Assembly: GCA_015231755.1 (NCBI GenBank)
Contig: JADGAZ010000009.1
Location: 62,001-126,000 of the forward strand
Reading direction: 5' to 3'
Length of the DNA: 64,000 bases
From: Magnetococcales bacterium
Lineage (GTDB): Bacteria; Pseudomonadota; Magnetococcia; Magnetococcales; Magnetaquicoccaceae
The translations under genes and the position numbers were made by a program. Numbering within the stretch: position 1 is the first letter of the stretch; every line of letters begins with the position of its first letter. Below are positions 1,617-31,957 of the stretch, in pieces. Below the pieces are notes generated by a model, which ran no database searches, was not told the origin of the DNA, and saw only the letters and a program-made list of their open reading frames with translations.

Positions 1617-3458
1617 TCATGAGGGGTACAGGGGAGGCAGAACAAGGGAGTTGGCGGGGGATGTCTGTCCGGCGGTGGCGCGGGTGGATTGCCAGGCTGT
1701 CCACAGTCGTTCTCCCTGCCAAGGGAAGGGGGTGGGACCGTAGAGCGTGGCCTGCAGTTGGGCGATGGCGTCGGCAAGTTCCCCGGGCAGGGGTTCGGAA
1801 AGGGCGAGCATGATCAGGGCGGCCTGGGCGGCTTTGGGGTCATTGGCCAGACAGGCGGCGCGCAGTCGGGCTTCGGCCTGACGGGCCTGGGTCGCGGCGG
1901 CGGCCAGCGGGTCGCTGGAGGGAGAAGCCGGGGCCTTGTGTCGTCGTGTGCCGCGCCACCACAGGAGGGCGGTGATCATCCATCCCAGAATCGCCATCAG
2001 GGCCACCCAGGGCCATGTTCCGGTGAGGGTATGGGCATCGGTCGGGGGAACGGATGGGGACGTGGCGCCGGACTGGGGGATAGATGGCGGAGAGCGGTCC
2101 GGGTTGACGGGGTTGACGGTCTCCGGGGTGGTGGAACGGTTGCCGGATGCAGGCTCGACCGAACGGGACTCCGGGTTCGGGGTGGCGCGGGTATCGGGCT
2201 GGCGGGCCTCCGGGGGAGGGGTGGAGCCGGTGCCGGAGGCGGGCAGCACCGTGATGCGCCGTTCCGGCAAACGGGCGACTTCCTGGCGTTGTTGATCGAT
2301 GTTCCACCAGGGAATGTCGATGGCCGGCAGCAGATGTTCGCCGGGGGTGGTGGGGATCATGGCGATGGTGTGGATCCGTTTGCCGATGATCCCGGTGGCC
2401 TCCTTTTGGTTTTCCAGGATCGGACGGTCGGGATACAGCTTGATCCCTTGCGGATCTTTCAGCGTGATCTCTTCCAGTTGCGCGGCGCTTAAGCCGTCGG
2501 CCATCAGGGTGATGGTGCGGGTCACCGGTTCTCCCACCTGAAAGACAGGGGGATCCGGACTCCATTTCTCCATGAGCATGAGCCGGTGGGCCGGAAGCCA
2601 AGCGCTGCCCCGTGGCCAGGAGGCGGGTTGGGCCTTGGCATCCAGGTGGATCGCCTGGGTGGCCAGTCGCACGGTCTGTCCGGGACGACCGGGACCGATG
2701 GGGAGATTTTGGATGAATGGATCGTTGAAGAACTCTTTCAGCAGGGAATTCTTCCCCTGACCGGGAAGTTGCACCGTCACTGGGACCGGATCGATCACCA
2801 AAGGGCCGCTGCGTTGGGGAATCAGGGCGTAGCGTCGTTCCGAGACCAGATAATGACGCTGATGGCGTTCGGTTTCGTAGGCTTGATCCGTCCCCAGTTT
2901 TTCGATCACCCCATCCCCGGAGGAGAGTTTGGGTTCGGGCATGGAAGCCCCGGCGATGGGGATCGCGTTGAGAAAACGCACGGTGAGGATGGTCTGTTCC
3001 AACCGGTAGGGATTGGGGTTGCTCAACTCCGCTTCGACCAGCAGTTCCGCATCGCTGCCGGGGGTTTGGGTGGCGGTCTTGTTTTTGCCGGGCAGGATTT
3101 TCAGGGTAATGGGGGTACTGCGGTCTTTGCCAAAGGTCAACGGCGGAATGGTGACTTCGCCGTTGTGTTTGGGCATCAACTCCAGGGTCCAGGTGATGGA
3201 GTGGCTCTTGTGCCCGTTGATGAACTGGAAATTGCTGCTTTTCCCCTGATCCAGAATTTCGAAATCCTTGGACAGGGGAGCGAAATCCGGATCTCCGTCG
3301 GGATTTTCGGCGGTGGAGAAGATCAGGGAAAAAGACTCCTCTTGCACCACCGGTTCCCGGGATGCCCGCACTTGGATTTCGGCGGCCCAGAGGGGAAGAG
3401 TCAGGATCCAGGTCAACAGGCCGAGCAGCACAGCCGGTTTCTTGAGGGGAGTCACCAT
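1617..3458 (-). CDS. batD: BatD-like membrane-anchored protein
   Basis: 613-residue protein of the BatD family, a large periplasmic protein encoded with the VWA proteins BatA and BatB in aerotolerance-type operons. It starts with a signal peptide (hydrophobic stretch around LLGLLTWILTLPLWAA), then beta-rich repeats containing EIQVRASREPVVQEESFSL, a Pro/Thr/Ser-rich linker at about 430-500, one membrane helix (WPWVALMAILGWMITALLWW) and a cytoplasmic alanine-rich tail. The ATG at 3458 has GGAGG upstream and overlaps the end of the batB-batC fusion by 7 bases. Family assignment rests on architecture and gene order; the molecular role of BatD is not established. Confidence 0.85.
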   Translation of the reverse strand: MVTPLKKPAVLLGLLTWILTLPLWAAEIQVRASREPVVQEESFSLIFSTAENPDGDPDFAPLSKDFEILDQGKSSNFQFINGHKSHSITWTLELMPKHNGEVTIPPLTFGKDRSTPITLKILPGKNKTATQTPGSDAELLVEAELSNPNPYRLEQTILTVRFLNAIPIAGASMPEPKLSSGDGVIEKLGTDQAYETERHQRHYLVSERRYALIPQRSGPLVIDPVPVTVQLPGQGKNSLLKEFFNDPFIQNLPIGPGRPGQTVRLATQAIHLDAKAQPASWPRGSAWLPAHRLMLMEKWSPDPPVFQVGEPVTRTITLMADGLSAAQLEEITLKDPQGIKLYPDRPILENQKEATGIIGKRIHTIAMIPTTPGEHLLPAIDIPWWNIDQQRQEVARLPERRITVLPASGTGSTPPPEARQPDTRATPNPESRSVEPASGNRSTTPETVNPVNPDRSPPSIPQSGATSPSVPPTDAHTLTGTWPWVALMAILGWMITALLWWRGTRRHKAPASPSSDPLAAAATQARQAEARLRAACLANDPKAAQAALIMLALSEPLPGELADAIAQLQATLYGPTPFPWQGERLWTAWQSTRATAGQTSPANSLVLPPLYPS

Positions 3459-23056: not shown

Positions 23057-23683
23057 TTACACGTTGCTTGCGTTGGTTCGCCGGTTGCGTTGATGGGTGA
23101 AAAGAGACTCCATGACCACGATTTTCAGACGATCATAGGGGGTTGGCTTTTGGAAGACCTCCACATCTTCGGGCATGCCGCCTTTGGCGGCGATTTGGGT
23201 TTCGTCCATGGCGGTCACCACGATGATCCGGGTGCGGGTCAATTCCGAGGACTCCCGCAGGGCGCGGATCATCTGGAATCCATCCATGGCCGGCATCATC
23301 AGGTCGGCGATGATCACTTCGGGTTTGTGCAGGCCGGCCTGGATCAGGCCGTCGTAGCCGTCCTCCGCCACCACCAGTCGCACCGGCAATCCCCAGTTGG
23401 CCACCACTGCTTTGGTGATTTCCCGCAGATTTTCATCGTCTTCCACCAGCAACAGGGTCAGTTCCAGAAGATCGGGATCCTGGAGTTGTTCGCGGCGTTT
23501 GGCCAGCAGTTGGTTGATGGAACTCATGGGGATACGGCAGTGGCCCCCGGCGGTTTTCCAGGATTTGATGATTCCCCGTTCCATCCAATAGTGGATCGTT
23601 CGTTGGGAAACCCCCAACATCTGGGCCGCCTTGGAGGTGGTGACCACTGGATCGGCAACTTCCGGTGTCCGTGACAATGGCAT
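23057..23683 (-). CDS. Response regulator with N-terminal excisionase/MerR-type helix-turn-helix
   Basis: 208 residues. The N-terminal 60 residues are a winged HTH of the excisionase/BldC/MerR type (TTSKAAQMLGVSQRTIHYWMERGIIKSW followed by the wing TAGGHCRIP). A receiver domain follows (LTLLLVEDDENLREI; Asp127 in VIIADLMMPAMDG). The order HTH-then-receiver is the reverse of most response regulators. It lies alone on the minus strand between the diguanylate cyclase and the seven-gene phosphorelay group, with a 9-bp-phased repeat cluster upstream. It is probably a transcription regulator of neighbouring genes; the target is not known. Confidence 0.88.
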   Translation of the reverse strand: MPLSRTPEVADPVVTTSKAAQMLGVSQRTIHYWMERGIIKSWKTAGGHCRIPMSSINQLLAKRREQLQDPDLLELTLLLVEDDENLREITKAVVANWGLPVRLVVAEDGYDGLIQAGLHKPEVIIADLMMPAMDGFQMIRALRESSELTRTRIIVVTAMDETQIAAKGGMPEDVEVFQKPTPYDRLKIVVMESLFTHQRNRRTNASNV

Positions 23684-24071: not shown

Positions 24072-25250
24072 ATGGAACCCAATATCGGAATCGGCAGTGT
24101 GGTCAGGTCAGGGCTTTTCACCGGGAGCCTGAAAAATGATGGGGTGGTCGAGCATCATCCCATCGTGGTCACGGTTTCGCGGAATTTTGGTTGCAATGGA
24201 GGCAAGATCGCGGAATTGTTGGCGGAACGGCTGAGTGTGAACTGCTATGGCCATTCGATGATCGATGATTTGATGAATAAAACGCATACGACCAAAAAAC
24301 TCATGTCGCTGATGGATGAAAAATTGCCCCGCGCCATCGACAGTTTTTTGTATTCGTTGCTCGTCAAACCCGAACAGTCCGTGACCGGTTATTACAAAAA
24401 TATCATCAAGACCATTCTGAACATCGCCAAGAGTGGTGGCGTGATCGTGGGACGGGGAGCCCGGTTGATTCTGGCCCATGATCCCCGGGTGTTCCGGATC
24501 CATCTGGAAGGCTCCAAGGATGTGTGCGTCAGGCGGGTCGCGGAACGGGAGGGGATCGATCCCAACGCGGCCAAACGCAAGATCGCCGAAATCGAAAAGG
24601 AACGCTCCCGTTTTCTCAAGGGCTTGTTCAAACGTTATCCCAATACCCGCACCTATTATGACCTGGTGCTCAACACGGATCGTCTCGACCCGGTACACGC
24701 GGTGGAGATCATCATCAACGCCATGGAGAAAATGGGCTATATCGACCATCTCCAGTCCGATGCCCAACCCCATCGGGAGACGGTCCCCGAATGCAAGTCT
24801 TTGCCGCCTTTGCATTTGGGACTGCATCTGCTGGTGGTCGAAGACGAGATGGAGTTCTTTTCGTTGATCAACGGCTGGCTGGAAACCTGGCCTGGCTCCG
24901 GTGGCAAGGAGTCGGGACAATCTCCGCCATTGCATTTGACCCATGCGAAAAGTTACAAGGAGGCGGAGTCGTGTCTGGATCACAATCAATACGATTTGAT
25001 TCTGCTCGATCTCAATCTGGCCGACAGCCAGGGTTTGGAACAGACCTTCGGACGGATCAACCAGAAAATTCATGACACCCCGATCATTGTTTTCACCGGC
25101 ATGGATGATGACCAGAAGGCCATCCAGGCGGTGGAGCAGGGGGCGCAGGATTATCTGGTCAAAGGACAGGTGAACAAGAAAACTCTGGTGCGCTCCATCA
25201 AACACGCGCTCTCCAGGTACAGGATCATGAAAACGTATTCCAAGAAATAA
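24072..25250 (+). CDS. Cytidylate-kinase-like domain fused to a response-regulator receiver
   Basis: 392 residues. The N-terminal 230 residues match the cytidylate-kinase-like group (Cytidylate_kin2): VTVSRNFGCNGGKIAELLAERL at the nucleotide-loop position (36-45), a mobile helical segment, GGVIVGRGARLIL, then FRIHLEGSKDVCVRRVAEREG and YDLVLNTDRL. The loop lacks the classic GKS/T lysine, as is usual in that group. The C-terminal receiver has Asp258/Glu259 (VVEDE), phosphoacceptor Asp313 (LILLDLNLAD), FTG, and Lys364 (DYLVKGQ). GGAG precedes ATG 24072. It is the first gene of a run with two receivers, an Hpt, a GGDEF response regulator and two hybrid kinases. Phosphorylation may control a nucleotide kinase or nucleotide-binding output; the activity itself is untested. 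Confidence 0.85.
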   Translation: MEPNIGIGSVVRSGLFTGSLKNDGVVEHHPIVVTVSRNFGCNGGKIAELLAERLSVNCYGHSMIDDLMNKTHTTKKLMSLMDEKLPRAIDSFLYSLLVKPEQSVTGYYKNIIKTILNIAKSGGVIVGRGARLILAHDPRVFRIHLEGSKDVCVRRVAEREGIDPNAAKRKIAEIEKERSRFLKGLFKRYPNTRTYYDLVLNTDRLDPVHAVEIIINAMEKMGYIDHLQSDAQPHRETVPECKSLPPLHLGLHLLVVEDEMEFFSLINGWLETWPGSGGKESGQSPPLHLTHAKSYKEAESCLDHNQYDLILLDLNLADSQGLEQTFGRINQKIHDTPIIVFTGMDDDQKAIQAVEQGAQDYLVKGQVNKKTLVRSIKHALSRYRIMKTYSKK

Positions 25251-25273
25251 ACCACGTTCATGAGGAGTTGGCC

Positions 25274-25654
25274 ATGGCCCGGATTCTGATCATTGACGAT
25301 GATGAACCCTTTCGGGTCCACCTTGGAATGCTGTTGAGAAATGCCGGTCATATGGTATTGGAGGTCGAGTGCGCTCTACATGCTTTGGACAAGATCGCAC
25401 TCGATCCTTTCGATTTGCTGATGACCGACATTTTCATGCCGAAGATGGATGGGTTTGAATTGCTCTCCACCTTGCTTCGGAGGCATCCAAGCATCCGGGT
25501 GATCGCCATGAGTGGCGGTGGTTCGGGGATGACCCCGGCTTTGGCGCTCAATGTGGCGCGCAAACTCGGGGCGGTCGAATGGATCAGAAAACCGTTTCAA
25601 ACAAGCGAGGTGCTCCGGGTGGTGGATCGCGCCTTGCTGTCAACTCCAACTTGA
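25274..25654 (+). CDS. Stand-alone receiver protein (CheY-like)
   Basis: 126-residue single-domain response regulator. ARILIIDDDEPF gives the acidic pocket, Asp52 (LMTDIFMPKMDG) is the phosphoacceptor, and IRKPF supplies the lysine. The usual Thr/Ser region reads VIAMSGGGSGM. GAGGAG precedes ATG 25274. It is about half identical by eye to the next gene and is probably its tandem duplicate. No output domain, so it likely works as a phosphorelay intermediate or by protein binding. Confidence 0.92.
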   Translation: MARILIIDDDEPFRVHLGMLLRNAGHMVLEVECALHALDKIALDPFDLLMTDIFMPKMDGFELLSTLLRRHPSIRVIAMSGGGSGMTPALALNVARKLGAVEWIRKPFQTSEVLRVVDRALLSTPT

Positions 25655-25688: not shown

Positions 25689-26087
25689 ATGGCACACATT
25701 CTGGTGGTGGATGATGATGAGAGCTTCCGGATCTATCTGGTGACCCTGCTCCGGCAGGCTGGCCACACGGTCTTGGAGGCGGACAATGGGCAGACAGGCT
25801 TGGAGTTGTGTGCGGCTTCGCCTGTGGAACTGATCATCACCGATATCTTCATGCCCAAAATGGATGGGATCGATCTGCTCGCGGCGGTGCGGACAGAGCG
25901 TCCCCAGGTCAAGGTGATCGCCATTTCCGGGGGGTACAAGGCGATGAACTCCCGTTTGACTCTGGAAATGGCCACCTCTTTTGGCGCCATGGACATCATC
26001 ACCAAGCCATTCCAGGCCGGAACGGTTTTGCAGAAAGTCACCAGGGCGCTTGAATCCACGGATGCTGAACCAACAAAGGATAAGTGA
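25689..26087 (+). CDS. Stand-alone receiver protein, paralogue of the preceding gene
   Basis: 132 residues: AHILVVDDDESF, phosphoacceptor Asp52 (IITDIFMPKMDG), VIAISGGYKAM and IITKPF. It shares the DIFMPKMDG block and the SGG feature with the protein at 25274, supporting tandem duplication. Stop codon at 26085-26087 lies directly before the Hpt gene, so both are probably co-expressed and may exchange phosphate. Confidence 0.92.
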   Translation: MAHILVVDDDESFRIYLVTLLRQAGHTVLEADNGQTGLELCAASPVELIITDIFMPKMDGIDLLAAVRTERPQVKVIAISGGYKAMNSRLTLEMATSFGAMDIITKPFQAGTVLQKVTRALESTDAEPTKDK

Positions 26088-26089
26088 AG

Positions 26090-26500
26090 ATGGAAACCGT
26101 TTTCCCATATCAAGAGTTGCTCGACTTGCAGAAATTGAGCGAAATGAAACAGGAGCTGGAAGGCGGATTCCAGACCGTGGTGCGTCACTATCAGGCCGGG
26201 ATTCTGCATCGGCCCGAAAGAATCCGTCAGGCGATCCGCGACCAGGATGCCGAACGGGTCGCCATGGAAAGTCACTCCTTGAAGAGTGTTTGTCGTCAGG
26301 TTGGTCTGGTGCGGATGGGTGAAATGGCCGCCGAGTTGGAAGCCATGGGGGTGGCCGGCAATCTCGCACAGGCCGAATCCCTGGTCGAACGGTTGATCGC
26401 CGCCAGTGTCACGGCCAACCAGGAGTTGACTTGTCATTGTGCCGGGGTCGAGTTGCCCCGACCGTTTTTCGAGAAAGGGGAAAGTTCGTCCAACCCGTAG
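26090..26500 (+). CDS. Stand-alone Hpt histidine phosphotransfer protein
   Basis: 136 residues forming a single helical Hpt domain; His62 in MESHSLKSVCRQVG is the phosphorylation site, followed by the LVRMGEMAAELE helix seen in Hpt domains. The ATG at 26090 is chosen because AAAGGA sits 9 bases before it; a GTG at 26084 is too close to that site. The hybrid kinases downstream (27535, 30017) and the one at 18403 end in receivers and lack Hpt domains, so this protein is the obvious shuttle from them to the single-domain receivers and the kinase-like fusion. That wiring is inferred from domain content. Confidence 0.87.
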   Translation: METVFPYQELLDLQKLSEMKQELEGGFQTVVRHYQAGILHRPERIRQAIRDQDAERVAMESHSLKSVCRQVGLVRMGEMAAELEAMGVAGNLAQAESLVERLIAASVTANQELTCHCAGVELPRPFFEKGESSSNP

Positions 26501-26530
26501 CCGTGACTGTTGCTGAAAGTTGAGGTCGAG

Positions 26531-27463
26531 ATGAATACCACCGCTCCGGCGGGCCGGAAAGGTCTTATTCTGGTCGCTGATGACGACATCTTGATGCGTG
26601 AGGCTCTGGTCGTCTTTTTCCAAAAGAATGGCCATGAGGTCGTCGTGGCCAAAGATGGCCAGGAAGTCTTGCAGATTCGCGCCCTGACCGTGCCGGATCT
26701 GATCGTTTTGGACGTGTGCATGCCCAATCTGGACGGCTTCGAGACCTGCCGCGCCCTGCGCAGGGATTGGGTCGCCCCCCGGATTCCGATCATCATGCTC
26801 ACGGGCCTGTTCGACACCCAATCCGTCGATCAGGCTTTCGAGGCGGGCGCGGATGATTATGTCACCAAACCCATTCATTGGGCGATCCTGCGACAACGGG
26901 TGTTGCTGTTGCTGCATCGCAGCGATGTGGAGGCCAGAATTCGCCATCAGGCCAATTTCGACGGCCTCACCGATCTGCCCAACCGCGTCTTGTTTCTGGA
27001 TCGGCTGACCCATGCCCTGTCGTTGGCCTGTCGCAATGGTGAGTCCCTGGCGGTGTTGTTCATCGATCTGGACCATTTCAAACCGATCAACGATACCCTG
27101 GGTCATGGGGCCGGGGATGAACTGTTGCGTCAGGTCGCCCAGCGACTGAGGCAGTGCGTGCGTCAATCCGACACGTTGGCCCGGCTGGGTGGGGATGAGT
27201 TCACCATCATCGTGGCCAATCTGTGTCAACCGCCGGATCCGGAGATCGTGGCGGAAAAGGTGCTGGCAGCCCTTTCCAGACCGTTTTGTCTGCATGGCAC
27301 CCACGCCATCATTTCGGCCAGTGTGGGTATCGCCTTGTATCCGGATCATGGCACCGAACTGGAAATCCTGCTCAGGAATGCGGATCAGGCCATGTATCAG
27401 GCCAAAAGCTTGGGCAGGAACCGGTATCAACGCTTCAAGCACTCGGGAGGGCCGGCTGCATGA
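26531..27463 (+). CDS. Response regulator diguanylate cyclase (receiver-GGDEF)
   Basis: 310 residues. Receiver with Asp61 (LIVLDVCMPNLDG) and DYVTKPIHW, then a GGDEF domain (NFDGLTDLPNRVLFLDRL; GGDEF at 220-224). RQSD five residues upstream fits the RxxD inhibitory site. Start ATG 26531 follows a GAGG site; a frame extension to 26510 is less likely. Its phosphorylation would switch c-di-GMP synthesis, giving the local phosphorelay a second-messenger output. Confidence 0.93.
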   Translation: MNTTAPAGRKGLILVADDDILMREALVVFFQKNGHEVVVAKDGQEVLQIRALTVPDLIVLDVCMPNLDGFETCRALRRDWVAPRIPIIMLTGLFDTQSVDQAFEAGADDYVTKPIHWAILRQRVLLLLHRSDVEARIRHQANFDGLTDLPNRVLFLDRLTHALSLACRNGESLAVLFIDLDHFKPINDTLGHGAGDELLRQVAQRLRQCVRQSDTLARLGGDEFTIIVANLCQPPDPEIVAEKVLAALSRPFCLHGTHAIISASVGIALYPDHGTELEILLRNADQAMYQAKSLGRNRYQRFKHSGGPAA

Positions 27464-27534
27464 GCGGACGCCAGGGGCGTCCGGGATTCAAGAAACAGCA
27501 CGCGTGATTGGCTTCAAGGGGGAGGAGAGGGATC

Positions 27535-30012
27535 ATGCCAGATCCGTTTCGGGGTTTGTTGGGGGGGTGTCAGACTCCCATGCGTTTTTTTCTGGGTCTG
27601 GCTTTGATCGGACTGGGAGAGACGGCGGTGACGGTTTTGCTGTTTCCGGATCATGGTGGTCTCATTTCACCGGTCATGCTGTTGACCCATTTTCTGTGCA
27701 TGACAGCCTGGAATCTTCTGATTATTCTGATCTTTTTTCATCTCCCCCTCTTTCGGGAGCTGAGAGACCGGCAGTGGATCCACGCCACCCATCACGCCTT
27801 GAGCCGTCGCATGCGGGATGTCGGAGTGGTGCAATCCCTTGGCGAAATGACCCTGCAATTTCTCCTCGAACATCTGGGCGCCCTCAATGGGGTGATCTAT
27901 CTGGCGGAAGAGGGGAATCGTCTCCAGTGGCTGTCCGGGATCGGCATCCCTTCGGAGCGGGAACTGTCCCAAACTCTGGAACCGGGTGAAGGACTCCTCG
28001 GACAGGTGGCCATCACCCGTAAACCGGTACGGCTCAAGGATGTGCCGGTGGAGCCGTTGCGGCTCAAGGCGGAACTGCTGGCGGGCTGGCCCCGGGATCT
28101 GATCATCACCCCTTTGATCCACGACGACCAATTGCAGGGAGTGTTGGCTCTGGGCAATCGGGAGCTTTTCCAGGATCGTCACCGGTGTTTCCTGGAGCGG
28201 GCCGGCGAGACCATCGCCCGGGCCATTGCCGGGGTGCGGGCCAACGCGGTGCGGCAGCAACTCCTGGAAGAAAGTCGCATGAAAACCCAGGAGTTGGCCA
28301 TCAATCAGCAGGTGCTCCGGGATACCATCGAACTGTTGGAACAGACCAGCGGTTTCAAGTCCCGTTTTCTCGCCAACATGTCCCACGAATTGCGTTCCCC
28401 CCTCAACAGTCTGTTGATCCTCGCCCAACTGCTCAAGGAAAACAAACAGGGCAATCTCACCCCCAAACAGGTGGAGTTCGCCTCTACCATCCATGCCGCC
28501 GGATCCGATCTGTTGACCATGATCGACGAAATTCTCGATCTGGCCCGCATCGAGGCGGGACGGATTCGCGTTTTCAAGGATCCGGTCAAGCTTTCCGAAT
28601 TGGCCATCGGTCTGGAACGGCTGTTTGTGCATGTGGCCCGGGAGAAGAAACTGGATTTCGAGGTGTTGTTGCAAGGCATGTTGCCCGTGGCCATCCGCAC
28701 CGACCGGATGCGGGTGGAACAGATTCTTAAAAACCTGATCACCAACGCCATCAAGTTCACCCATGCCGGCGGGGTGACGGTGACCATCCGACCGGTGCCA
28801 GATGGGGTCGGCACCCTGATCGCCATGTCCGTGGCGGATACCGGGGTGGGCATTCCCAGGGATCAGCACGCCGAGGTGTTCGAGCCGTTCCGCCAGTTGG
28901 ATGACGGCTCCAATCGGAAATACGGTGGCAGCGGATTGGGTCTGGCCATCAGCAAGGAGTTGGCCCAACTGTTGGGAGGACGCATCGAACTGGTGAGCGA
29001 ACAGGGACAGGGCAGTCTGTTTACCTTGTATCTGCCCCTGGAAAGCGTGGAATCTTCCCCGTTGCCCCAGGCCACTCCGGTGACGCCCCGGAACGAAGAG
29101 CGCAACCAGGGTATCGACGCCATCCCGGATGACCGGCGTCGTTTGGGACCGGATGACCGTTCGGTCTTGCTGGTGGGCATGGATTATCACCGGATTCGCG
29201 CCATCGGGGAAGCGGCCCGGGTCTTGGGACTCGGGGTGATTGTTGCCGGGGATCAGAGCGCCGCGCTTTTCCTGGCCAATTTTTTGCGTCCGGTGGGTTT
29301 GATCATGGTGGGGGATCTGCCCGGCGTGGCTACGTTTCCCCTGGTGAAACGGTTGCGGACCACTGCGGATCGGGATGCCCTGCCGGCTTTGTATCTTCAT
29401 CCCGCCAACGCGACCCTGGAAATCGATGGTGCCGCAGAAGAGGTCCAACTGGTTCCTTTGCTGCGGGAGAGTGATCAAACCAGCCCGGAGTGCCAACGAT
29501 TCCTGCAATCCGTTCTGGCGGTGCCCGCGGCTTGTGCGCTGGAAGATTCCGGAGCGGATCCGACGCGTGATCGTGGGGGCGTGGGCTTTCCGTCCGACCC
29601 GCTCCTCAAGGGGCATCCGGCTGTGTGCAATCTGGTTGGTCGGCGTGTTTTGTTGATTGATGATGATATCCGCAATATTTTTGCTCTGACCAGTTTTCTG
29701 GAAGAGCAAGGATGTCAGGTGATCATGGCGGAGAGTGGTCGGGTTGGGATGGAGCGGTTGCGTCAGCAACCCTTGCTTGACATGGTATTGATGGACATCA
29801 TGTTGCCCGACATGAATGGTTATGATTGGTTGGGAGAGATTCGCCGTCAGCCGGCCTGGCGTCATCTTCCCTTGCTGGTTCTGACCGCCAAGGCCATGCA
29901 GGGGGAGCGGCAACGCTGTCTGGAGGCCGGGGCGTCGGACTATCTTTCCAAGCCGGTGGATACATTGAAACTGCTTTCCATGATGCGTCCTTGGCTCGAT
30001 AAGAATCGGTGA
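27535..30012 (+). CDS. Hybrid histidine kinase: two membrane helices, GAF, HisKA, HATPase, degenerate receiver, receiver
   Basis: 825 residues. Two N-terminal membrane helices (FFLGLALIGLGETAVTVLLF; AWNLLIILIFFHLPLF), a GAF domain at about 85-235 (GEGLLGQVAITRKPVRLKDV), HisKA with His284 (ANMSHELRSPLNS), HATPase (NLITNAIKFT, DTGVGIPRDQ, GGSGLGLAIS). Residues about 544-640 (VLLVGMDYHRIRAIGEA onward) look like a receiver fold but carry no phosphoacceptor Asp. The C-terminal receiver is intact (Asp754 in MVLMDIMLPDMNG). GGAGG precedes ATG 27535. The membrane part has almost no periplasmic loop, so sensing is probably cytosolic through GAF. Confidence 0.92.
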   Translation: MPDPFRGLLGGCQTPMRFFLGLALIGLGETAVTVLLFPDHGGLISPVMLLTHFLCMTAWNLLIILIFFHLPLFRELRDRQWIHATHHALSRRMRDVGVVQSLGEMTLQFLLEHLGALNGVIYLAEEGNRLQWLSGIGIPSERELSQTLEPGEGLLGQVAITRKPVRLKDVPVEPLRLKAELLAGWPRDLIITPLIHDDQLQGVLALGNRELFQDRHRCFLERAGETIARAIAGVRANAVRQQLLEESRMKTQELAINQQVLRDTIELLEQTSGFKSRFLANMSHELRSPLNSLLILAQLLKENKQGNLTPKQVEFASTIHAAGSDLLTMIDEILDLARIEAGRIRVFKDPVKLSELAIGLERLFVHVAREKKLDFEVLLQGMLPVAIRTDRMRVEQILKNLITNAIKFTHAGGVTVTIRPVPDGVGTLIAMSVADTGVGIPRDQHAEVFEPFRQLDDGSNRKYGGSGLGLAISKELAQLLGGRIELVSEQGQGSLFTLYLPLESVESSPLPQATPVTPRNEERNQGIDAIPDDRRRLGPDDRSVLLVGMDYHRIRAIGEAARVLGLGVIVAGDQSAALFLANFLRPVGLIMVGDLPGVATFPLVKRLRTTADRDALPALYLHPANATLEIDGAAEEVQLVPLLRESDQTSPECQRFLQSVLAVPAACALEDSGADPTRDRGGVGFPSDPLLKGHPAVCNLVGRRVLLIDDDIRNIFALTSFLEEQGCQVIMAESGRVGMERLRQQPLLDMVLMDIMLPDMNGYDWLGEIRRQPAWRHLPLLVLTAKAMQGERQRCLEAGASDYLSKPVDTLKLLSMMRPWLDKNR

Positions 30013-30016
30013 CTCA

Positions 30017-31957
30017 ATGAAACCTTACATCCTGATCGTGGATGACCTGGACAACAATCTGACCGCCACCGCCGGTTTGCTGGCCGACATGGGCGCGGAG
30101 ATGGTGTTGGCGCGCAATGGCCGCGAGGCGTTGCTCCAGATGACCAAACACGATTTCGCCGTGGTGCTGCTCGACGCCCATATGCCGGACATGGATGGTT
30201 TCGAGGTGGTGCGGCTCATGGCGGGGGTAAGCCGTACCCGGACCATTCCGATCATCTTCATGTCGGCGGTTTTCAAGGATGACCAACACGCTCTGGTCGG
30301 TTACGACCTCGGGGCCGTGGATTATCTGGTGAAACCCTTTCCCCCGGAGTTCTTGCGGGCTAAGGTCAAGGTGTTTCTGGAACTTTTCCGCCAGAAGGAG
30401 CGGATTCATGCCCAGGATCAGGCGTTGCGGCTGTTTCGCAATCTGTTGGACGAGTCCAGTGATGAGATTCTGATTTTTGATCTTGATTCCGGGTTGTTGC
30501 TCGATGCCAATGTGACCGCCTTTGAACGTCTGGGCATGCCCCGGGAAGAGTCCATCGGGGCGTTTCATCTGGAGGATTGTCATCTCATCATTGGCAAGGA
30601 CCGGCAGATGGATCTGCTTGTGGAGCGCATCCGCGCCCATGGCCGTTTGATCGTGGAAGGGGAGTATTTCGACCGGAGTCGGCAACTTCACTATACCGAA
30701 ACCAATCTCCAGTTGTTCGAGCAGCCCGGTCAGGCGCTGCTGTTGGCCATGTTACGGGATGTGACCCAGCGCAAGCAGATCGAATTGGCCTTGTGTCGCG
30801 CCCAGGCTGAGGCCGATCAGGCCAATCAGGCCAAAAGCGATTTTCTGGCCGCCATGAGCCATGAAATCCGTACCCCGATGAACATCATCATCGGCATGAG
30901 CGACGTGTTGCTGGAAACCCATCTGGGGCCGGAGCAAAAATATTATCTGTCGATGTTGCGCACCGCCGGGGACAATCTGATGGTGCTGATCAACGATATT
31001 CTGGATTTGAGCAAGGTGGAGGCCAATAAATTGCAAATCCTGGTGGAGCCGGTTCATGTGCGGGCCGTGGCTACCGAGGTGATCGACATGCTGCGGGTGT
31101 TGGCCGGCAACAAGGGGATCAGTCTGGAGATGCGTCTGGATCCGACGTTGCCGGAATGGATCCAGTCGGATGGGATGCGGGTTCGGCAATGTTTGTACAA
31201 TCTGCTCAGCAATGGTTTGAAATTCACCGAGCGGGGATGGGTGGTGGTGGATATCGGTCGGAAGCCGAACGATGCCGACACCCTGTTGGTGGTGGTGGCG
31301 GACAGTGGCATCGGGATTCGTCCCGACCATTTGGAGCGCATCTTTGAGAGTTTCACCCAATCCGATTCGGGCATCTCCCGGCGGTATGGCGGCACCGGGC
31401 TGGGGCTTTCTCTGACCCGGCGGCTGGTGGAGATGATGGGGGGACGGATCTGGGTGGAAAGCCGTTTTGGCGAGGGGAGCCGGTTCTTTTTTACCTTGCC
31501 CCTGCGACCGGCGGCGGCTCCGGATCAGAGCCGGGAGTATCCCGGAGGCGGGCGGGGCAAGCCGGATGGGGTGGTGCGTCCCTTGAAGATTTTGCTGGTG
31601 GAGGATATGGAGGAGAACCGGGAGCTGGTGAACCTGTATCTGGAGAGTTCCCCCCATCATCTGAGCATGGCCACCAATGGGGCCGAGGCGTTGGATCGGG
31701 TCATGCGGGAGGCGTTCGATGTGGTGCTGATGGATATCGAGATGCCGGTCATGAACGGTTTGCGGGCCACGACCCTGATTCGCGCCTGGGAAAAAGAGAG
31801 CCGGCGGGAGTCATCGCTTGTCATTCTGGCCCTGTCCGCCCACTCCATGGAAGGGGAGGCGAAGCTGTGTCGGGAGGCGGGTTGCAACGACCATCTGGGC
31901 AAACCCATCAGCAAGAAGAATCTGCTCGCCGCCCTGGAACGGTATGGCAACCGGTGA
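30017..31957 (+). CDS. Cytosolic hybrid kinase: receiver, PAS-like, HisKA, HATPase, receiver
   Basis: 646 residues, no membrane helices. N-terminal receiver with Asp53 (VVLLDAHMPDMDG) and DYLVKPFPPEF; a PAS-like domain (LLDESSDEILIFDLDSG to MLRDVTQRKQIE); HisKA with His282 ([13 protein letters not shown]); HATPase (NLLSNGLKFT, DSGIGIRPDH, GGTGLGLSLT); C-terminal receiver with Asp573 (VVLMDIEMPVMNG). It starts 4 bases after the previous kinase and ends the group, converging on the ABC permease gene 12 bases away. No Hpt domain, so it would need the separate Hpt at 26090 or another. Confidence 0.93.
   Translation: MKPYILIVDDLDNNLTATAGLLADMGAEMVLARNGREALLQMTKHDFAVVLLDAHMPDMDGFEVVRLMAGVSRTRTIPIIFMSAVFKDDQHALVGYDLGAVDYLVKPFPPEFLRAKVKVFLELFRQKERIHAQDQALRLFRNLLDESSDEILIFDLDSGLLLDANVTAFERLGMPREESIGAFHLEDCHLIIGKDRQMDLLVERIRAHGRLIVEGEYFDRSRQLHYTETNLQLFEQPGQALLLAMLRDVTQRKQIELALCRAQAEADQANQAKSDFLAAMSHEIRTPMNIIIGMSDVLLETHLGPEQKYYLSMLRTAGDNLMVLINDILDLSKVEANKLQILVEPVHVRAVATEVIDMLRVLAGNKGISLEMRLDPTLPEWIQSDGMRVRQCLYNLLSNGLKFTERGWVVVDIGRKPNDADTLLVVVADSGIGIRPDHLERIFESFTQSDSGISRRYGGTGLGLSLTRRLVEMMGGRIWVESRFGEGSRFFFTLPLRPAAAPDQSREYPGGGRGKPDGVVRPLKILLVEDMEENRELVNLYLESSPHHLSMATNGAEALDRVMREAFDVVLMDIEMPVMNGLRATTLIRAWEKESRRESSLVILALSAHSMEGEAKLCREAGCNDHLGKPISKKNLLAALERYGNR

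Follow-up and report, generated by a model that had tools for sequence, protein, structure and literature searches.

A cytidylate kinase-like domain joined to a receiver domain in a phosphorelay gene cluster of one Magnetococcales family

The fusion protein

A gene residing in a 64,000-nucleotide stretch of a Magnetococcales genome (the window) encodes a protein made up of a Cytidylate_kin2 (CK2) domain followed by an intact receiver (REC). Architecture, conservation, single origin, gene cluster and the partners of an apparent module exchange are documented below. The explanation that we rate best, and hold with moderate confidence, is a lineage-specific phosphorelay protein in which CK2 is a nucleotide-binding module, serving in sensing or in gated binding, coupled to the relay.

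The CK2-REC gene (Table 1) is one open reading frame, with an ATG at 24072 and a stop codon ending at 25250 on the forward strand; a ribosome-binding-like stretch, AGAGTGGAGA, lies directly 5' of the start. PF13189 matches residues 32-203 at 136.8 bits, above the curated cut-off of 28 (E=1.1e-39), the alignment spanning positions 1-175 of the 176 of the profile. The best stretch for PF00072 is 289-375 (57.3 bits, cut-off 30.2; E=2.1e-15), and no other Pfam domain was matched in the 392 residues. The acidic pair, phosphoacceptor Asp, Thr/Ser and Lys that define an intact receiver are present as E257/D258, D313, T342 and K364, and are identical in 15/15 fusion proteins from related genomes. AlphaFold2 predicts two well-folded domains, with a pLDDT >90 for most residues in 30-60, 110-220 and 250-385; the stretch 231-245 that links the two and the N-terminal tail are disordered. 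The pTM is 0.52, so that the relative placement of the domains in the model is uninformative. The earlier note had described a Cytidylate_kin2 domain joined to an intact receiver; both assignments are borne out, and its residue numbers and domain limits are correct.

Purifying selection acts strongly on both domains, and neither is decaying. Compared with five relatives by the Nei-Gojobori method, dN/dS is 0.05-0.08 in the CK2 part, 0.05-0.09 in the receiver, and 0.17-0.34, where computable, in the linker. A frame antisense to the gene, 24108-25205 (-), lacked support and was taken as a mirror frame.

Table 1. Location of the fusion gene, its domains, the neighbouring genes and the tandem CK2 pairs of other loci
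Feature	Position	Strand	Remarks
Divergent MerR-like HTH + REC regulator	23057..23683	-	PF12728 + PF00072; kept beside most fusion loci
CK2-REC fusion protein, 392 aa	24072..25250	+	Single frame; full-length relatives in Magnetococcia
Cytidylate_kin2 (PF13189) domain, residues 32-203	24165..24680	+	PF13189 match, P-loop residues, fold matches
Receiver domain, about residues 248-392, phosphoacceptor Asp313	24813..25247	+	PF00072 (E=2.1e-15), catalytic residues
Single-domain receiver 1	25268..25654	+	PF00072; 17 bases 3' of fusion gene; conserved
Single-domain receiver 2	25689..26087	+	PF00072; conserved
Hpt phosphotransfer protein	26084..26500	+	PF01627; overlaps preceding gene; conserved
REC-GGDEF protein	26510..27463	+	PF00072 + PF00990; kept in most loci of genus g1
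GAF-HisKA-HATPase-REC hybrid histidine kinase	27508..30012	+	Pfam; kept at several other g1 loci
REC-HisKA-HATPase-REC hybrid histidine kinase	30017..31957	+	Pfam; kept at several other g1 loci
Tandem CK2 pairs with a degenerate copy	L054:7076-7684, L060:7988-8593, L062:1747-2355(-), L065:7260-7853(-), L066:7318-7914(-), L067:6931-7536(-), L061		

Fold, P-loop and the kinase question

In a Foldseek search the CK2 model matches best 3hdt (E=1.6e-11, TMt 0.83), and also 3fdi; shikimate and CMP kinases come next, 2h92 and 4die being among the matches of the fold class shared with Cmk. An NMP-kinase-like P-loop fold, as the earlier note had proposed, therefore holds. 3fdi and 3hdt are structures of PF13189, the family whose profile the fused CK2 matches along its full extent; they have the same fold as the fused CK2, and the 3fdi loop, GREFGSGG, is of the same kind as the loop of the fusion, being devoid of the Walker lysine; both entries are titled only 'putative kinase' or 'uncharacterized protein'. 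Within the open-access literature searched, no PF13189 member came up whose activity had been measured.

None of the CK2 domains examined (60, of which 58 are from Magnetococcales) contains the Walker A motif GK[ST]; five members of the family belonging to Actinomycetota, Spirochaetota, Bacteroidota and Bacillota lack it as well. The usual CK2 loop, where Walker A is expected, is SRxxGxxG, and the fusion features SRNFGCNGG (SRNFGCNGGKI) instead of GxxxxGK[ST]. Residues R37, G40, G43, D82, R128 and R155 are invariant, and E83, R142 and R178 nearly invariant, in 49 fused and stand-alone CK2 domains; all nine are kept in 15/15 fusions, G127-R128 (GR motif) also being among the conserved positions. 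Basic residues of the phosphate-binding type are thus retained, the Walker lysine is not. Position 45 is K or R in every fusion, and is not conserved outside fusions.

Curated (d)CMP-kinase models do not recognize the protein. TIGR02173 gives 37.6 bits with the fusion, far below its cut-off of 102.1, and TIGR00017, searched in the same genome, retrieved above cut-off only a separate, normal Cmk with the loop GPAGAGKGAV, leaving the fusion locus unmatched; the gene adjoining Cmk reads, by eye, presumably as aroA. These results, together with the missing GK[ST], rule out a housekeeping CMP kinase. The alignment by hhalign of the CK2 profile to this Cmk gave no significant match, hence the CK2-Cmk relation rests on structure, not on sequence. 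The CK2 part is probably a nucleotide-phosphate binding domain, and may be an unorthodox kinase.

The latter option bears on a proposal of the earlier note, that a nucleotide kinase is switched by phosphorylation. CK2 would be an active kinase of nucleotides or small molecules having a non-canonical P-loop, with R37 and/or K45 in the role of the Walker lysine and phospho-Asp313 as the switch. Another basic residue can take the place of a Walker lysine, and both the invariant R37 and the K/R found at 45 in the fusions could stand in for it; the conserved R37, R128, R142, R155, R178 and D82/E83 are the kind of set used by the NMP-binding and LID regions of NMP kinases, and fold and purifying selection also suit an enzyme. 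Yet GK[ST] is found in 0/60 domains, K45 is a feature of the fusions only, and neither the curated models nor hhalign bring CK2 close to the canonical Cmk which the same genome carries. We regard a gated kinase as unlikely. Enzyme-domain response regulators as such are a known category, exemplified in section 14 of PMC5847659 by archaeal KaiC-REC and glycosyltransferase-REC proteins. These resemble CK2-REC in combining a receiver with an enzyme-family domain and in their narrow phyletic range; CK2-REC differs in having another domain, devoid of the usual P-loop lysine and of doubtful activity.

Origin and a probable module exchange

The fused receivers form one clade (100/99), adjoining the receivers of proteins with an N-terminal cyclic-nucleotide-binding domain (PF00027; cNMP-REC proteins), and the fused CK2 domains, whose tree otherwise holds stand-alone CK2 proteins around them, likewise group together as one clade (100/100). 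Since the fused domains are monophyletic in each of the two trees, the fusion is, on phylogenetic grounds, of single origin in one Magnetococcales family. The group of 32 rows surrounding the fused receivers (100/99) otherwise includes cNMP-REC receivers of the same family only, and the receivers nearest to the fused ones belong to proteins of this type. PF00027 is absent from the fusion, whose N-terminal part matches PF13189 only. Elsewhere, this receiver group carries an N-terminal cNMP domain, which gives the fusion the appearance of a module exchange, CK2 for cNMP. In the simplest history, a duplicated cNMP-REC receiver would have gained CK2 in place of the cNMP domain in the family ancestor. 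The receiver tree was midpoint-rooted for drawing only and some of its forks are open; the direction is what we infer, the fused receivers being nested in the cNMP-REC receivers, and not sister to them, only if the root lies among more distant receivers.

In three genomes (L012, L016, L017) a cNMP-REC gene lies immediately upstream of the fusion gene. Proteins of this kind, with no other recognised domain, are widespread in Magnetococcales (G000:C1:199314, at L002:763-2067 in the window's genome; relatives at L099-L117). The receiver of the former is 59% identical to that of the fusion, and the two proteins share the layout, a ligand-binding-type N-terminal module followed by a C-terminal receiver, differing in the module, PF00027 in one and PF13189 in the other. 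Other module orders were observed in further Magnetococcales families: CK2-cNMP-REC (L054 and L062, the receiver match being weak in L062), CK2-cNMP (L061) and cNMP-CK2 (L063). The existence of these three unlike combinations argues that the purposes of CK2 and cNMP modules are related.

Tandem CK2 pairs occur in several other Magnetococcales families, one component having the SRxxGxxG loop, the other being degenerate (SGExGxG-like, mostly with no GR motif). The degenerate copies make up one clade of seven (100/99; Table 1). In such pairs, an active-like subunit might form a heterodimer with a degenerate one.

The degenerate copies, found in other families, tell that the fold can persist without its motif. 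CK2 could accordingly be an inert scaffold for dimerisation or protein docking, and the fusion in effect a single receiver acting as a phosphate sink; the protein has no other output domain, and single-domain receivers adjoin its gene. A mere scaffold would not need the active-site-like positions, which are kept in 15/15 fusions, and this makes the scaffold quite improbable.

Distribution

The fusion was monitored in 48 Magnetococcia genomes, 18 of which belong to the family of the window (genera g1 and g2). Full-length copies of the same two-domain order were found in 14/48, the window's own genome included, all in this family (14/18). Of the four family members lacking the fusion, two are only 57% and 77% complete; the other two, G012 and G014, reach 91% and 99% completeness. 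The copies total 15, those other than the window's being 58-94% identical to it. Genome G017 carries two diverged copies (L014:4088-5284 and L015:8001-9194). That two adjacent genes were merged by an assembly or frame artefact, an idea favoured by the separate occurrence of both partners in the order and by the genome being a MAG, can be dismissed, being refuted by the conservation of 15 full-length copies in 14 genomes, with conserved synteny and low dN/dS across both domains.

PF13189 itself is present in 43/48 Magnetococcia genomes, in one to several copies each. Outside Magnetococcia it was detected in three genomes only in a sample of 399 Pseudomonadota, in frames of 302, 260 and 291 aa, lengths too short for a typical CK2-REC. 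A contig scan with narrow patterns found the nearest relatives exclusively in MAGs of Magnetococcales, which are magnetotactic-type bacteria, the source genome being itself such a MAG. CK2 proteins seen outside Magnetococcales stand alone, in contrast to CK2-REC, where a receiver follows. Two plasmids from distant phyla (L123, Aureibacter; L125, [Eubacterium] eligens) carry a cytidylate-kinase-like gene in the vicinity of one for a DASS/SLC13-type anion transporter; in Treponema (L122) such a gene lies directly 3' of an amino acid ABC transporter. Transporters are odd neighbours for a CMP kinase.

Gene neighbourhood

The fusion gene heads a cluster in which genes are separated by tens of bases or overlap, with the divergent HTH-REC gene upstream (Table 1), a layout kept, wholly or partly, at most fusion loci. 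The location in a phosphorelay operon had been recognized in the earlier note, and the Hpt and the two hybrid kinases are circumstantial evidence for phosphate reaching the fusion receiver. At two reduced loci (L050 and L052) only the fusion gene and a single receiver are left of it; in L052 a PilZ protein gene comes next after the pair, and in L050 a similar protein is encoded at the same place. The REC-GGDEF protein in many loci, and PilZ at the reduced ones, suggest c-di-GMP as a further output.

The window's genome has a second CK2 gene (G000:C19; L003:1480-2271(-), 2328-3308(-)), flanked on one side by a gene for polyphosphate kinase 2 (PF03976, E=2e-103) and on the other, only a few bases off, by one for a hybrid histidine kinase. 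This genome, 3.84 Mb in size, contains at least 150 REC and 143 HATPase matches, so that chance accounts in part for two-component genes in the vicinity of CK2 genes, and such proximity is given no weight here.

Discussion

Between the two outputs that had been envisaged for CK2-REC, nucleotide sensing fits the data better; nucleotide phosphorylation gated by the receiver is weakened by the missing P-loop lysine, by the (d)CMP-kinase models and by the cNMP domain of the receiver's relatives, and is doubtful. 'Output domain' may even be the wrong word for the CK2 module, which is possibly an input.

As a nucleotide-binding module of the relay, we infer that CK2 would bind nucleotide phosphates, with weak or no classical phosphotransfer, and would occupy the position held by the cNMP domain in the relatives of CK2-REC. 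Its ligand state and the phosphorylation of Asp313 would influence each other, in a coupling to the receiver analogous to that presumed for the cNMP part of the sister proteins. Intracellular nucleotide status would tune how phosphate flows through the receivers, Hpt and hybrid kinases encoded next to CK2-REC, and from there to a c-di-GMP partner, REC-GGDEF here and the PilZ protein at reduced loci. The replacement of one nucleotide sensor by another is an analogy, the ligands of the cNMP domains being putative. Broader still, and held tentatively as the less probable view, is the idea that a Cytidylate_kin2 fold with no Walker lysine is a nucleotide-sensing module plugged into bacterial two-component systems, where it and the cNMP domain could stand in for each other.

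The earlier note had also considered the architecture non-standard. No paper describing PF13189 together with a receiver was found in the open-access literature searched, the classic output-domain reviews lying outside it, and novelty, judged within this literature and the Magnetococcia and Pseudomonadota samples, is provisional. Narrow-range fusions of receivers to enzymes are a familiar kind otherwise, and the finding is to that extent less surprising; unexpected to a specialist would be the missing lysine and the evidence for module exchange.

The widespread PF13189 family carries the name 'cytidylate kinase-like'. CK2-REC adds to it a receiver architecture absent from the literature searched, and coupling to a receiver and exchange with a cNMP domain are a concrete, testable hint of a role of the family in signalling or sensing. 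If the sensor reading is true, CK2-REC proteins would be phosphorelay components reading a nucleotide pool directly, and this would be the first function for PF13189 in signalling.
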